Positions 26,291 through 43,532 of a stretch of DNA of 64,000 nt are shown here, in pieces. Both the position numbers and the translations under genes were made by a program. The stretch is from Lentisphaeria bacterium (GTDB lineage: Bacteria > Verrucomicrobiota > Lentisphaeria > Oligosphaerales > Oligosphaeraceae): NCBI GenBank assembly GCA_024405215.1, contig JAKSPB010000012.1:1-64000 (forward strand), read 5' to 3'. Every line of letters begins with the position of its first letter. Within the stretch, counting starts at the first letter, position 1. The notes beneath the pieces are model-generated. The model worked only from the letters and a program-made list of their open reading frames with translations. It searched no databases and was not told the DNA's origin.

Positions 26291-27232
26291 ATGGACGACA
26301 AGACGACGATAGAACAGACGCCGGAAGCAACGACCCTGCCTTTGGAAAAGGGCCATACAGGCTACGTGGCACTGCTGGGGCGCCCCAACACGGGCAAATC
26401 CACTTTTCTGAACACCGTTCTGGGATGCCATCTGGCGGCAGTCTCCTCCAAGCCCCAGACGACTCGAAAATCCATGCTGGGAATCTACAACGATGCGGAG
26501 GCCCAGATCATCTTCCTGGATGCGCCTGGCGTGCATCCCTCGAAACTGGCCATTGACGAAGCCATGTCCGATTCCGTCTCCAAGGTCCTGGAAGACGCGG
26601 ATGTAGTGGTCTGCCTGATTGACCCCACCCGTGCCCCCGGCGAGGAGGACGCCCTTGCGGCATCCTTGGCGGCATCCTGCAAGAAGCCCGTCCTTCTGGT
26701 GCTGAACAAATGCGATGTCAGCACCCAAGAACAGCGCCAGACCAGCCTGGCATTCTATCGCGAGTCCCTTCCTCAGGCGGAATCGCTGGAAATGACGGCG
26801 CTGGACGGCAGAAGCGCCAGCGGACTGATTTCCCGCCTGAAGGCATTGCTTCCCGTAGAGCTCTTCCTGTATGACCGGGAGGATGTCACGACCGTCTATG
26901 AGCGCGACATCGCAGCTGAACTGATCCGCGAATCCCTGCTGGAACTTCTTCGGGAAGAAATTCCCCACGCCATTGCCGTGACCATTGAGTCCTGGAAGGT
27001 CGACGGGCAGAACATTTCCATTGAAAGCACCCTGACCCTGGAACGCGAAGCCCACAAGGGCATCGTCATTGGCCAGGGCGGCAAAATGATCAAGGCCATT
27101 CGGCACAGCGCCGTGAAGAAATTGTCGGAGCTATGCGAAGGGGCGCGAATCGACTTGGCTCTTCGGATCCGTGTCGTTCCCAACTGGCGTAAACACAAGC
27201 AGTTCCTGAAAAAGATCAAGCTATGGGAGTAA
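26291..27232 (+). CDS. era: GTPase Era
   Basis: A 313-residue GTPase for 30S assembly that binds the 3' end of 16S rRNA. G motifs are GRPNTGKSTF (G1), DAPGVH (G3) and NKCD (G4). The C-terminal KH domain carries IVIGQGGKMIKAIRHSA. The length and order fit Era. Its last codons overlap an ATG (27223) that opens the frame leading into comF, and a 158-bp repeat begins 6 bp after the stop. Confidence 0.95.
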   Translation: MDDKTTIEQTPEATTLPLEKGHTGYVALLGRPNTGKSTFLNTVLGCHLAAVSSKPQTTRKSMLGIYNDAEAQIIFLDAPGVHPSKLAIDEAMSDSVSKVLEDADVVVCLIDPTRAPGEEDALAASLAASCKKPVLLVLNKCDVSTQEQRQTSLAFYRESLPQAESLEMTALDGRSASGLISRLKALLPVELFLYDREDVTTVYERDIAAELIRESLLELLREEIPHAIAVTIESWKVDGQNISIESTLTLEREAHKGIVIGQGGKMIKAIRHSAVKKLSELCEGARIDLALRIRVVPNWRKHKQFLKKIKLWE

Positions 27233-27238
27233 TCGGGC

Positions 27239-27396
27239 AAGGTAATTGCAAAAGTCGCTTTAGCCATTTTCCGCCCTTTCCGGCCATTTTTGTCCAAGGA
27301 CTTCGCGCCGTAAGAAACTACGGCTTGGCGCACTGGGGCAAAACCGCCTCGGAAATTCCTGGGAAACGCCTTCAAATGAACTTTTGCCATTACCTC
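27239..27396 (-). repeat. 158-bp dispersed repeat, copy 1
   Basis: The ends are inverted repeats (AGGTAATTGCAAAAGTC at the left, its near reverse complement GAACTTTTGCCATTACCTC at the right). The body aligns without gaps to copy 2 in reverse orientation (28587-28744) and to copy 3 (31966-32124). On the minus strand it is open for about 52 codons, ending in KMAKATFAIT; on the plus strand the frame that leads into comF is also open. It fills the junction between era and comF. Confidence 0.8.
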
Positions 27397-28104
27397 GCTC
27401 CTGTCATTCGCACCCTGGACACCCTGTTGTCGCCGCCGGTCTGTCCGGTCTGCGAAAAGCATCTTTCCGCGAATGACGCTCCCGGACGTCTTTGCGACTA
27501 CTGCGACGCAGCAACGCCAAGGCTTCCGGAGATGCGCTGCCGACTCTGTGGTGCGCCGCTGAACACGGCGCTGGAACTTTGCCGGGAATGCACGGCAGAA
27601 ACGCGTCCCTGGCTGGCGGGAACCTGCGCCTTTCCCTACGACGGCCCGGCCGGCGAATGGATCCGCGCCTATAAATACGGCCGCAAGACCGCATTGGCGC
27701 CTGTGCTGGCCCGGGAGATGGCGCTGGCTTGGAAAGCGCACGGCAAGTCGGTCCGCCCTGAAATCATCGTTCCCATCCCCCTGCACTGGCGCCGCCAGCG
27801 AGTTCGTGGCTTCAACCAGGCGGAGCTTCTGGCGCAATTCCTGGCCCCGCAGCTTGGCATGCGTTGTGTAAACGCGCTGAAACGCCGCTACGCCACCGCA
27901 CACCAGGCACGCCTGACGGAATCATCCCGCCTGAAGAATCTCCAGAAGGCATTCGTAGTTGTGGACGCAGAGGCCATCGCCGGAAAATCCGTCCTGGTGG
28001 TTGACGATGTCTTCACCACCGGCGCCACCTTCACGGCGGCCTGCCAGGCGCTGTTGGCCGGCGGCGCGGCGGAGACGGCTGTGCTGGCCATCGCCCGTGC
28101 GTAG
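27376..28104 (+). CDS. comF: ComF family phosphoribosyltransferase-like protein
   Basis: A protein of about 242 residues. The N-terminal part has two zinc-ribbon pairs (VCPVC and LCDYC, then CRLC and LCREC). The C-terminal phosphoribosyltransferase fold has IIVPIPLHWRRQRVRGFNQAELLA and the PRPP loop VLVVDDVFTTGAT. ComF proteins support DNA uptake during transformation in some bacteria; here the role is inferred. The chosen ATG (27376) lies inside the end of the 158-bp repeat. The frame also continues upstream through the whole repeat to ATG 27223, which overlaps the end of era, so the true N-terminus is uncertain. Confidence 0.85.
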   Translation: MNFCHYLAPVIRTLDTLLSPPVCPVCEKHLSANDAPGRLCDYCDAATPRLPEMRCRLCGAPLNTALELCRECTAETRPWLAGTCAFPYDGPAGEWIRAYKYGRKTALAPVLAREMALAWKAHGKSVRPEIIVPIPLHWRRQRVRGFNQAELLAQFLAPQLGMRCVNALKRRYATAHQARLTESSRLKNLQKAFVVVDAEAIAGKSVLVVDDVFTTGATFTAACQALLAGGAAETAVLAIARA

Positions 28105-28167: not shown

Positions 28168-28575
28168 ATGAAGCGATATTTTACCCTAATGGAAGTCATG
28201 ATCGCCGCGCTGGTACTGACCCTGAGCGCGGTGGCCACGCTTTCCATTGTGGGAACGAGCCGGGCGAATGTCCTGCGCGAGGAACGGCGCTGGTCCCGCG
28301 AACACTACATGACCAACGTAGTGGAGTTCTTCCTGGCGGTCGGCCCCAACGGCGAACTGCCTGCATGCCTGTTGCCGGAAGGCTGGCACGCTACCTGCGA
28401 GTTGTATGATCTTGACGACGGCCTTCCGGAAGCCGCCCTGGAGTCTATCCAGGAATGGCGTCTGGGCGAATTCCACATCCAGCTCTTCGACAAAGAGGGG
28501 AACATGGTAAACGAGCAGTTCATCCGGAAACTCCTCAAGGAAGAGGATCTGGGATACGGCACCATGGGAGGCTGA
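28168..28575 (+). CDS. GspI-like minor pseudopilin
   Basis: A 135-residue prepilin-type protein: a very short leader MKRY is followed by FTLMEVMIAALVLTLSAVA, with the Glu at position 5 of the mature protein, then a small soluble domain. Size and position ahead of GspJ- and GspK-like genes suggest the GspI/PilV role at a pseudopilus tip. The residue before the predicted cleavage site is Tyr, not Gly. The stop is 2 bp before the next ATG. Confidence 0.75.
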   Translation: MKRYFTLMEVMIAALVLTLSAVATLSIVGTSRANVLREERRWSREHYMTNVVEFFLAVGPNGELPACLLPEGWHATCELYDLDDGLPEAALESIQEWRLGEFHIQLFDKEGNMVNEQFIRKLLKEEDLGYGTMGG

Positions 28576-28577
28576 AG

Positions 28578-29420
28578 ATGGCACGTGAGGTAATTGCAAA
28601 AGTCCATTGGGAGGCACTTTTCAGGGATGTCCGAGGCAGTTTGCTTCAAGTACGACAAGACGTAGCCACTTACGGCGCGAAGCACTTGGAGCAAAATGAC
28701 CGGGAAGCGCGAAAAGTGGCCAAAGCGACTTTTGCCATTACCTCGCGTAGATACTTCACCTTCCTGGAACTGGCCATCGCCCTCTCCATCCTCATGGTCG
28801 TCTCCTTGGCGCTCTACGCTTATTCCCACGGCGTCTCCCAAAGCTGGTCGCAAATGGTCAAAGAAAAGAACCGCTTCCAGGAAATGCTGAACCTGGACCG
28901 CACCATCGACGCCGTCCTCGCCAACGCCGTGCCCTTCACCTGGAAAAGCGATGACGCCATCAACGAGGACGGATCCTTCCCCTTTATCGTCGCGGAATAC
29001 AATTCCCTGCGCTTGGCATACCTCCATGACCTCCACGATTCCGTAGAAGGCGCACTCCGCTTCGCAGAATTCGTCGTGAAGGATGAAAATCTCTATCTGA
29101 CCTACTCCGACAGGCCTTTCTACCAATGGGGAGACCTTGGGGGGCGGGACCAGACGGTCCTGCTGGCCGAAAATGTCCGCCAAATCACATTCTCCTATCT
29201 GGATTGGTCCGCCGATGAGGACGACAATTGGGAAAACCGCGCCCTCTGGCTGGATGAGTGGGAGACCGAGGACTCCGGACGCATGGATGCGCCGCTGGCC
29301 ATCATCATGACCGTGGAATGGACGGATGGACGCCAGGAAAGCTGGATGCGCCGGACCATGGGAAACTCCTATCGGGAACGCTTCGGAAAATGGACTCCGC
29401 TGGACGAAGATAAGCGATGA
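28578..29420 (+). CDS. GspJ-like minor pseudopilin with a repeat-encoded N-terminus
   Basis: ATG 28578 has GGGAGG six bases upstream and sits two bases after the previous stop, so it is a strong start. From codon 4 to about codon 56 the protein is encoded by the 158-bp repeat (VIAKVHWEAL ... ARKVAKATFAIT). Only then comes the prepilin signal RRYFTFLELAIALSILMVV and a soluble domain of about 200 residues. A pseudopilin leader of about 59 residues is abnormal. A GTG at 28716 with GGGAAG upstream could give a 13-residue leader instead. The original leader was probably MAR-RRY-like. It overlaps the next gene by ATGA. Confidence 0.72.
   Translation: MAREVIAKVHWEALFRDVRGSLLQVRQDVATYGAKHLEQNDREARKVAKATFAITSRRYFTFLELAIALSILMVVSLALYAYSHGVSQSWSQMVKEKNRFQEMLNLDRTIDAVLANAVPFTWKSDDAINEDGSFPFIVAEYNSLRLAYLHDLHDSVEGALRFAEFVVKDENLYLTYSDRPFYQWGDLGGRDQTVLLAENVRQITFSYLDWSADEDDNWENRALWLDEWETEDSGRMDAPLAIIMTVEWTDGRQESWMRRTMGNSYRERFGKWTPLDEDKR
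28587..28744 (+). repeat. 158-bp dispersed repeat, copy 2 (inside a coding frame)
   Basis: It runs from GAGGTAATTGCAAAAGTC (28587-28604) to GCGACTTTTGCCATTACCTC (28725-28744). Its reverse complement aligns closely along its whole length with copies 1 and 3. In this orientation the repeat is open throughout and is read as the N-terminus of the pseudopilin. Confidence 0.85.
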
Positions 29421-30421
29421 ACAGAAATGCTTCCAACAATCAGCGCGGAATGGCCCTCCTGATGGTCCTGGGCGTCCTCTCCACCACACTCGTGCTTATC
29501 GCGCATCTGATGATGATTGCGGAGATTGTCTCCAAAGAAGCCTACGAAATCTCCACCAAGGGCCTGATGCGCTATCAGGCGGAATCCGCCGCCGACACCG
29601 CATTCTGGATGCACCTCACCGACAGACGGCTCTTCTCCGACCGGACGCTAGGGCAGACGGCAGACGACGACTACCGCGTCTCCGAAGACTTCGAGCCATG
29701 GATGTTGGATGGACGCCCACATGAGTTCGACGAAGGACGGTGCGTGGTCTATCTGAACTCCGGCGAAAGCGGCATCCGCGTAGACAATCTGGAAACCCTG
29801 AAAGACGGCTTGAACTCGGTGGACGACGCGGACCTCATCACCGATATCGACATGTTGATCGATGCCTACAAGGACTACACCGATACGGACGACCTGACCA
29901 ATCTCAATGGCTATGAGAAAGCCGACTACGAGGCGGACGGCTTCTATACCCTGCCCCGCGATGGCGCCATGGAGTTCAAAGCCGAACTCTACTGGCTACC
30001 GGGATGGCAGGATGTGGTAACAGAGGAAATCGCCACGCTCCCGCCGATGAAAATCAGCTACAACTACGGGCGGAACAAGAAGACATCCGTCTTCTCCGCC
30101 ACAGACCGGCAAATCTGCAGTCTACTGGGCATTGACGAAAATTCCGGCGAATTCCAGACGATCAAGGAAGCCATAAAACGCTGGCTGGAAGAAGGCATCC
30201 CCTTAGATGAATCCCTGGACGGCGATCTCCTGATATCGCTGCAGAACGAGTTCAATTTCACCGAGGCCGGAGTGGCCGTGGTGGAGGCCAACGCATACGA
30301 CGGCCAGAAGGAGATCATGTCCGGTTATCGTATAGTACGCGAAGCTAAAATTTCCTCAAAAACATTCTTCGCCGATTCCCGCAAGCAATGCCTGTCTATC
30401 TGGGAACGGAAGTGGCGATAG
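29417..30421 (+). CDS. GspK-like minor pseudopilin
   Basis: A 334-residue protein that starts at an ATGA overlap. The leader MNRNASNNQRG is followed by MALLMVLGVLSTTLVLIAHL, the GspK/PilX-type hydrophobic helix with no Glu at position 5, as expected for GspK. Then comes a large acidic soluble domain (NLETLKDGLNSVDDADLI...). It completes a GspI-J-K-like tip set. No secretin, ATPase or platform gene accompanies it, so it must use machinery encoded elsewhere. Confidence 0.75.
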   Translation: MNRNASNNQRGMALLMVLGVLSTTLVLIAHLMMIAEIVSKEAYEISTKGLMRYQAESAADTAFWMHLTDRRLFSDRTLGQTADDDYRVSEDFEPWMLDGRPHEFDEGRCVVYLNSGESGIRVDNLETLKDGLNSVDDADLITDIDMLIDAYKDYTDTDDLTNLNGYEKADYEADGFYTLPRDGAMEFKAELYWLPGWQDVVTEEIATLPPMKISYNYGRNKKTSVFSATDRQICSLLGIDENSGEFQTIKEAIKRWLEEGIPLDESLDGDLLISLQNEFNFTEAGVAVVEANAYDGQKEIMSGYRIVREAKISSKTFFADSRKQCLSIWERKWR

Positions 30422-31898: not shown

Positions 31899-31965
31899 GA
31901 TTTATGAAAAGTTTTGCGGAAAACAGGCCAAATCTGGACGATTTTGGACAAACACGAATAGGCTT

Positions 31966-32124
31966 GGGGAAATTGCAAAAGTCGCTTTGGTCACTTTTCG
32001 CGCTTTCCGGCCATTTTGCTCCAAGCGCTTCGCGTCATAGTGGACTACGCCTTGTCGCACTTGAAGCAAACTTTCTCGGAAATCCCTGGGAGGTGCCTTT
32101 ACTATGGACTTTTGCAATTTCTTC
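31966..32124 (-). repeat. 158-bp dispersed repeat, copy 3
   Basis: It runs from GGGGAAATTGCAAAAGTCGC to ATGGACTTTTGCAATTTCTT, in the same orientation as copy 1. It is one base longer than copies 1 and 2 near the ATG-bearing end. It lies between the gapA promoter and the 3' end of a lipoprotein gene (stop at 32128), so no gene start is affected here. The minus-strand frame ending KVTKATFAIS is still open. Confidence 0.82.
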
Positions 32125-43426: not shown

Positions 43427-43446
43427 GAGCCTTTTGCAAAAGGCTC
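43427..43446. repeat. 20-bp perfect palindrome, copy 2
   Basis: GAGCCTTTTGCAAAAGGCTC is identical to 324-343 and lies about 41 bp upstream of the D-like gene start. It is followed on the plus strand by the interrupted hairpin CAGCGGACGGC/GCCATCCGCTG. Confidence 0.65.
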
Positions 43447-43512: not shown

Positions 43513-43532
43513 GAGTCTTTTGCAAAAGCCTC
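43513..43532. repeat. 20-bp near-palindrome, copy 3
   Basis: GAGTCTTTTGCAAAAGCCTC differs from the perfect palindrome by small changes in the arms. Together with 43427-43446 it brackets the 95-bp gap after the 720-residue gene. Confidence 0.55.

Follow-up and report, generated by a model that had tools for sequence, protein, structure and literature searches.

A probable in-frame insertion of a MITE-like palindromic repeat in the leader of a predicted GspJ pseudopilin from a Lentisphaeria bacterium

Rickettsia palindromic elements (RPE) are reported to lie in frame, and at high frequency, within unrelated metabolic genes (Ogata et al. 2000, 2002; PMC10969869). The enterobacterial repeats RU-1/RU-2, which are of the ERIC type, are described as MITE-like and mostly intergenic, with some copies fused in frame to genes, for example, YPO1552 of Yersinia pestis (Delihas 2007, PMC2759123). 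The repeat analyzed here resembles RPE in being a dispersed palindrome of ~150 bp that has an open frame and is fused in frame to host genes, but differs in that only gene starts, and no gene bodies, are affected, that the frames and strands of the fusions differ, and that there is a clear 4-bp duplication. With RU-1/RU-2, it shares the MITE-like character, the mostly intergenic location, and the in-frame fusion of some copies. However, the sequences are unrelated, the enterobacterial repeat supplies part of a signal sequence whereas the present one is inserted into the n-region and is followed by the native hydrophobic part, and no prepilin leader is described for RU-1/RU-2 in the parts of that account considered here. 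As with bacterial MITEs in general (reviewed in PMC10969869), the repeat is short, bears inverted repeats, generates a target duplication, is present in many copies, and carries no transposase, although no autonomous partner was found and the family is limited to one genome in the collections searched. A literature search that reached few of the subscription journals returned no paper describing such insertions; two aspects seem to be new, namely, that a prepilin leader is targeted and that insertions into coding sequence are confined to the first codons, in most cases those of export leaders. Long leaders as such are known from type IVb prepilins, where they span ~15–30 residues compared with a norm of 5–10. 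The leader described below likewise exceeds the norm, but reaches 59 residues and does so by insertion.

The insert-bearing gene is found in the 64,000-nucleotide stretch analyzed here (positions 1 to 64,000 of contig JAKSPB010000012.1; hereafter, the window; Table 1). Family models for gspI, gspJ, and gspK weakly match the upstream gene, the insert-bearing gene, and the next gene, respectively, the gspJ model yielding 18.9 bits (E = 0.001), which is below its curated cut-off of 64.85. The AlphaFold model of the protein (mean pLDDT of 81) retrieved its best fold match in the PDB with an E value of 1e-8, and the top 20 matches are all XcpW, EpsJ, GspJ, or complexes containing them. Because the predicted fold matches XcpW/EpsJ/GspJ and the surrounding gene order is I-J-K, the gene is identified, by modeled fold and position, as a sequence-distant GspJ minor pseudopilin of a type II secretion cluster. 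In the same model, the extra leader appears as a helix spanning residues 2–53, a part that is without aligned-sequence support.

Table 1 Coordinates of the features discussed in the text (window positions unless a locus is given)
Feature	Position	Strand	Evidence or remark
MITE-like element, palindromic, full-length copy of 158 bp	28587..28744	+	Read as gspJ codons 4-56, in frame; copy alignment, inverted repeats, fold
Target-site duplication, left, ACGT	28583..28586		3/4 identical to 28745-28748
Target-site duplication, right, GCGT	28745..28748		Pairs with ACGT 28583-28586
gspJ, type II secretion minor pseudopilin (predicted)	28578..29420	+	280 aa with insert; MARRYFTFLELA... without insert
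Shine-Dalgarno GGGAGG for ATG 28578	28566..28571	+	Anti-SD duplex -10.2 kcal/mol
GTG inside element, in frame, rival start	28716..28718	+	SD -4.3 kcal/mol; fully paired in predicted hairpin
gspI-like minor pseudopilin, adjoins gspJ upstream	28168..28575	+	Weak gspI model match (E 0.028), gene order
gspK-like minor pseudopilin, adjoins gspJ downstream	29417..30421	+	Weak T2SSK / GspK matches, gene order
comF, start codon overlapping era end	27223..28104	+	ComF/Pribosyltran matches
Second in-frame copy, comF N-terminus past codon 5	27239..27396	-	79% identical to gspJ copy; degenerate duplication GGGC/GCTC
Third copy, intergenic, upstream of gap (GAPDH)	31964..32124	-	Repeat match within window
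20-bp palindrome GAGCCTTTTGCAAAAGGCTC sites	324-343, 43427-43446, 43513-43532; L145:10614; L134:3396		

Read directly from the sequence, the TGA stop codon of gspI occupies positions 28573–28575 and, two bases on, ATG 28578 opens a frame that extends to 29420 and encodes 280 aa, insert included. The codons ATG GCA CGT are followed by the repeat, which runs from GAG 28587 to CTC 28744 (158 bp), and the 3′ junction, GCGT AGA TAC TTC ACC TTC, is read as CGT AGA TAC TTC ACC TTC CTG GAA, that is, as the prepilin motif, so that 59 residues precede the F of FTFLE. The coordinates that the earlier note had given for the start codon, its GGGAGG, the spacing from the preceding stop, and a 158-bp repeat beginning three codons in all hold, and its count of a 59-residue leader was reproduced. 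Its description of the repeat as being in frame up to RRYFTF is correct as to the frame, but the first arginine belongs to the duplicated target, and the insertion amounts to 162 bp (158 + 4), or 54 codons. These codons are stop-free, and removal of the 162 bp gives MARRYFTFLELAIALS, in which the leader is MARRY/FTFLE (the slash marks the leader end). Thus, since 54 codons were gained without a stop, the prepilin leader was extended from 5 to 59 residues.

The gspJ of a same-genus genome starts MSHRRHFTFLELAIA (MSHRRH/FTFLE), and the leaders in 26 further members of the bacterial family or order are mostly 5–13 residues long, two being of ~23 residues and one uncertain at 23. The comparison with orthologues put forward in the earlier note accordingly gave short leaders: among the gspJ orthologues compared, none has a repeat-like leader, and none has the same long leader without the repeat. 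Residues F60, T61, and E64 are invariant in 28 gspJ orthologues, and the protein displays the F(T/S)xxE motif together with a hydrophobic helix. The abundance of the repeat and the division of the genome into 82 contigs raise the suspicion of an assembly chimera at the repeat. However, comF and gspJ are found in the same order and at a similar spacing on a single contig of the same-genus genome, which argues against a chimera, and the target duplication joins both flanks of the gspJ copy; we consider this explanation extremely improbable.

Model and profile searches of the 2.98-Mb genome detected ~94 copies or fragments of the repeat, 65 of them full length; of 1313 first-look candidates, the best 150 were scored in the model search, such that weak fragments may be missed. 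Element lengths cluster at 158 and ~186–190 bp (modal lengths 158 and 188), the long form containing ~30 bp extra in the middle. In the copy alignment, the terminal inverted repeats of the gspJ copy are GAGGTAATTGC.../...GCCATTACCTC, and those of the family are GAGnnnnTTGCAAAAGTC at both ends, with outer bases that vary in matched pairs among the copies. The gspJ copy folds with z = -5.7. A 4-bp flanking duplication matching in at least three of the four positions accompanies 60 of the 65 full copies (30 perfect and 30 three-of-four), a count that is somewhat favoured because boundary shifts of at most 3 nt were permitted. In its number of copies, its folding, and its flanking duplications, the repeat exceeds chance. 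Short, present in many copies, without transposase coding capacity, and endowed with inverted repeats and a fixed-length 4-bp duplication, the repeat is a lineage-specific, non-autonomous, palindromic MITE-like element, representing a new family of a known kind of MITE gene fusion.

No copy of the element was detected in 59 relatives, two of the same genus among them, and its exact ends occur in none of 28 other genomes of the bacterial family. A search for close matches to a 22-bp element pattern in 84,980 species genomes, possibly exclusive of the present one, and in IMG/VR viral contigs returned nothing, and Rfam gave no match at the gathering threshold. There are solo element ends without a partner; around these ends and the DDE_Tnp_1 genes, no transposase with matching ends that could represent the autonomous partner was found, and the sole complete IS examined ends differently from the MITE. 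Many MITE families are without a living autonomous partner. The IS in question is ~1.3 kb long (L140:1355-2661), encodes a DDE_Tnp_1 transposase, and has 24-bp ends, CACTGCTGTCCGGTAAAAAAATCA, that bear no relation to those of the MITE, a partial copy of which is found nearby. Small genes lie next to it (L140:2659-4731), one of which resembles, as judged by eye only, an LcrH/SycD-type secretion chaperone. Separately, a 20-bp palindrome, GAGCCTTTTGCAAAAGGCTC, corresponds to two element ends joined with the interior missing, and some of its sites show a partial 4-bp duplication; these palindromes are perhaps excision footprints or the smallest member of the family.

To describe the surroundings of the copies, we used a hexamer coding model trained on the fetched stretches around them, according to which coding sequence makes up ~84% of the flanking DNA and none of the ~94 copies or fragments lies inside a gene body. 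Insertion into gene bodies after the manner of RPE, which had been suggested by the long open frames, was rejected, given that in this model all copies are intergenic or at gene edges. Most are located between genes, often right at the stop codon, and 47 of 60 full copies are found between genes of the same direction. The latter may be internal to operons, and a strong hairpin in such a place could have an effect on the transcripts. In ~7 copies (for example, L130:4043, L119:3237, and L147:5505), the stop codon is made at the element boundary from a target T and the element-end GA; because the stop is formed there, a copy can settle at a gene end and leave the protein almost unchanged.

Five copies part a start codon from its gene, and all of these are in frame, stop-free, and placed within codons 3–7. 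Besides gspJ, the set includes comF, in which MGVIG is followed by the element and then by PVIRTLDTLLSPPVCPVC (the same-genus comF starts MGVAAKALHLFDLMLAPSICPAC); a secreted protein (L104), split as MKKVL/ACLVCALMSCTLSAAEE, whose relatives have plain short signal peptides; a signal-peptide protein (L142), split as MKISGV/SLRRLGLCLLCLACVAL, with a same-genus relative that also starts with a signal peptide; and a lipoprotein (L133), split as MTCKNV/RLPF...LLALLVLLLGLQWGC and flanked by the perfect duplication GTAC, for which a search for relatives returned none. Taking the element out leaves a sensible protein in all five cases. Loci L103, L123, L135, L139, and L145 were discarded as N-terminal fusions, a plausible native ATG being kept downstream of the element in each. 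Four of the five genes (gspJ, L104, L142, and L133) encode export leaders, compared with 23–31% of genes (P = 0.011–0.036), a background that comes from a rough home-made heuristic and is set against n = 5. We infer that copies survive only between genes or in the first few codons, the latter mostly in leaders removed on export, and propose that this confinement reflects the purging of insertions at other places in genes.

For gspJ itself, the reading that we favour, with a probability of roughly 80%, is that a MITE-like element inserted into the gene, is translated from ATG 28578, and is lost with the cleaved leader, the mature pseudopilin remaining unchanged. The transposition of an element of 158 or ~188 bp that makes a 4-bp duplication into codon 3–4 is shown by the insertion itself, the duplication, the short leaders of the orthologues, and the open frame of 54 additional codons. 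Under this scenario, ribosomes starting at ATG 28578 would translate it into a hydrophilic, probably helical extension, which would remain cytoplasmic, with the hydrophobic pilin helix still inserting; and prepilin peptidase would then cut the extension off together with the leader.

As judged from the sequence, ATG 28578 is favoured as the start, with translation through the element, because its Shine-Dalgarno sequence is far stronger than that of GTG 28716 (-10.2 vs -4.3 kcal/mol), it is positioned two bases past gspI, and the GTG is paired in the hairpin. In the predicted fold, part of the Shine-Dalgarno region belonging to ATG 28578 is paired as well. Alternatively, GTG 28716, which is in frame and which the earlier note had named as a possible start, or a TTG inside the element could be the start, in which case the leader would be of a near-normal 13 residues, ATG 28578 would be dead, and the element would have donated the start. 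A GGGAAG-like sequence upstream of the GTG and the internal starts also held by comF and other copies speak for this alternative, but the weak Shine-Dalgarno pairing and complete sequestration of the GTG in the predicted hairpin speak against it, and the L133 lipoprotein has no start within the element or in any part of the leader beyond it, which makes read-through necessary there. Indeed, the upstream ATG of that gene, with AGGAG ahead, is the only in-frame ATG/GTG/TTG over the first 110 codons, and the element must therefore be translated if the gene is expressed. An internal start in gspJ is thus unlikely. With ATG 28578 as the start, the predicted hairpin of -66 kcal/mol, which begins 9 nt past the start codon, could depress translation.

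Among the gene products of this genome are a full-length prepilin peptidase (L208; CxxC pairs, GKGD) and a short A24 protein (L207), of which the former would remove the 59-residue leader of GspJ. At position -1, GspJ has Tyr rather than Gly (or Ala), and orthologues vary at this position. In 19 further pilin-like starts, located in the window and in the fetched DNA of L096–L165, this position is never Gly; it is Ser in 11, Asn in 4, Thr in 2, Tyr in 1, and Ala in 1, and the leaders span 4–9 residues. Because of the Tyr in GspJ and the lack of Gly in these 19, cleavage at the usual site is assumed. Either residues other than Gly at -1 are acceptable to the prepilin peptidase of this clade or cleavage occurs off the textbook position; a shifted specificity of prepilin peptidase in the clade is possible.

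It can be tentatively proposed, at somewhat less than even odds, that the mobile element has a genomic safe harbour in cleaved export leaders, namely in the n-regions of leaders of the prepilin, Sec, and lipoprotein types, with insertions being tolerated there because the added peptide, once translated, is cut off. The earlier note had regarded the leader as a safe landing place, a view strengthened by the three additional in-frame insertions in export leaders and weakened by comF, which has no export leader and tolerates a copy too. The comF copy, at codon 6, and the location of all five coding insertions within codons 3–7 point instead to a general tolerance of gene starts, whereby N-terminal extensions would be harmless in many proteins irrespective of leader cleavage. 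Such tolerance may explain part of the pattern, given that comF carries a copy without an export leader; as the full explanation it is less likely than not, being at odds with the excess of export leaders, itself a rough count (P ~0.01–0.04).

A third possibility, that the element was selected to encode a useful peptide, as proposed for the protein-coding palindromes of Rickettsia, is very unlikely. Three of the six frames of the consensus are open, an outcome seen in ~3% of cases in a palindrome simulation that understates the palindrome, and openness is more frequent in every frame than it is among shuffled copies. With 4 bp added, both modal lengths (158 and 188) are divisible by 3, but copy lengths are not independent, and frame-preserving lengths were rejected as a sign of selection since the copies share ancestry. 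Furthermore, the five fusions differ in frame and use both strands, and gene bodies are free of copies.

The insertions constitute a natural experiment on leader capacity, in which, within one genome, a prepilin leader of 5 residues became one of 59, and three Sec or lipoprotein leaders were extended by 54–64. They also suggest an explanation, open to testing, for the survival of some transposon insertions within genes, and annotators should expect long repeat-derived N-termini in such genomes. If cleaved leaders are indeed a safe harbour, the element would live inside important operons without altering the mature proteins.
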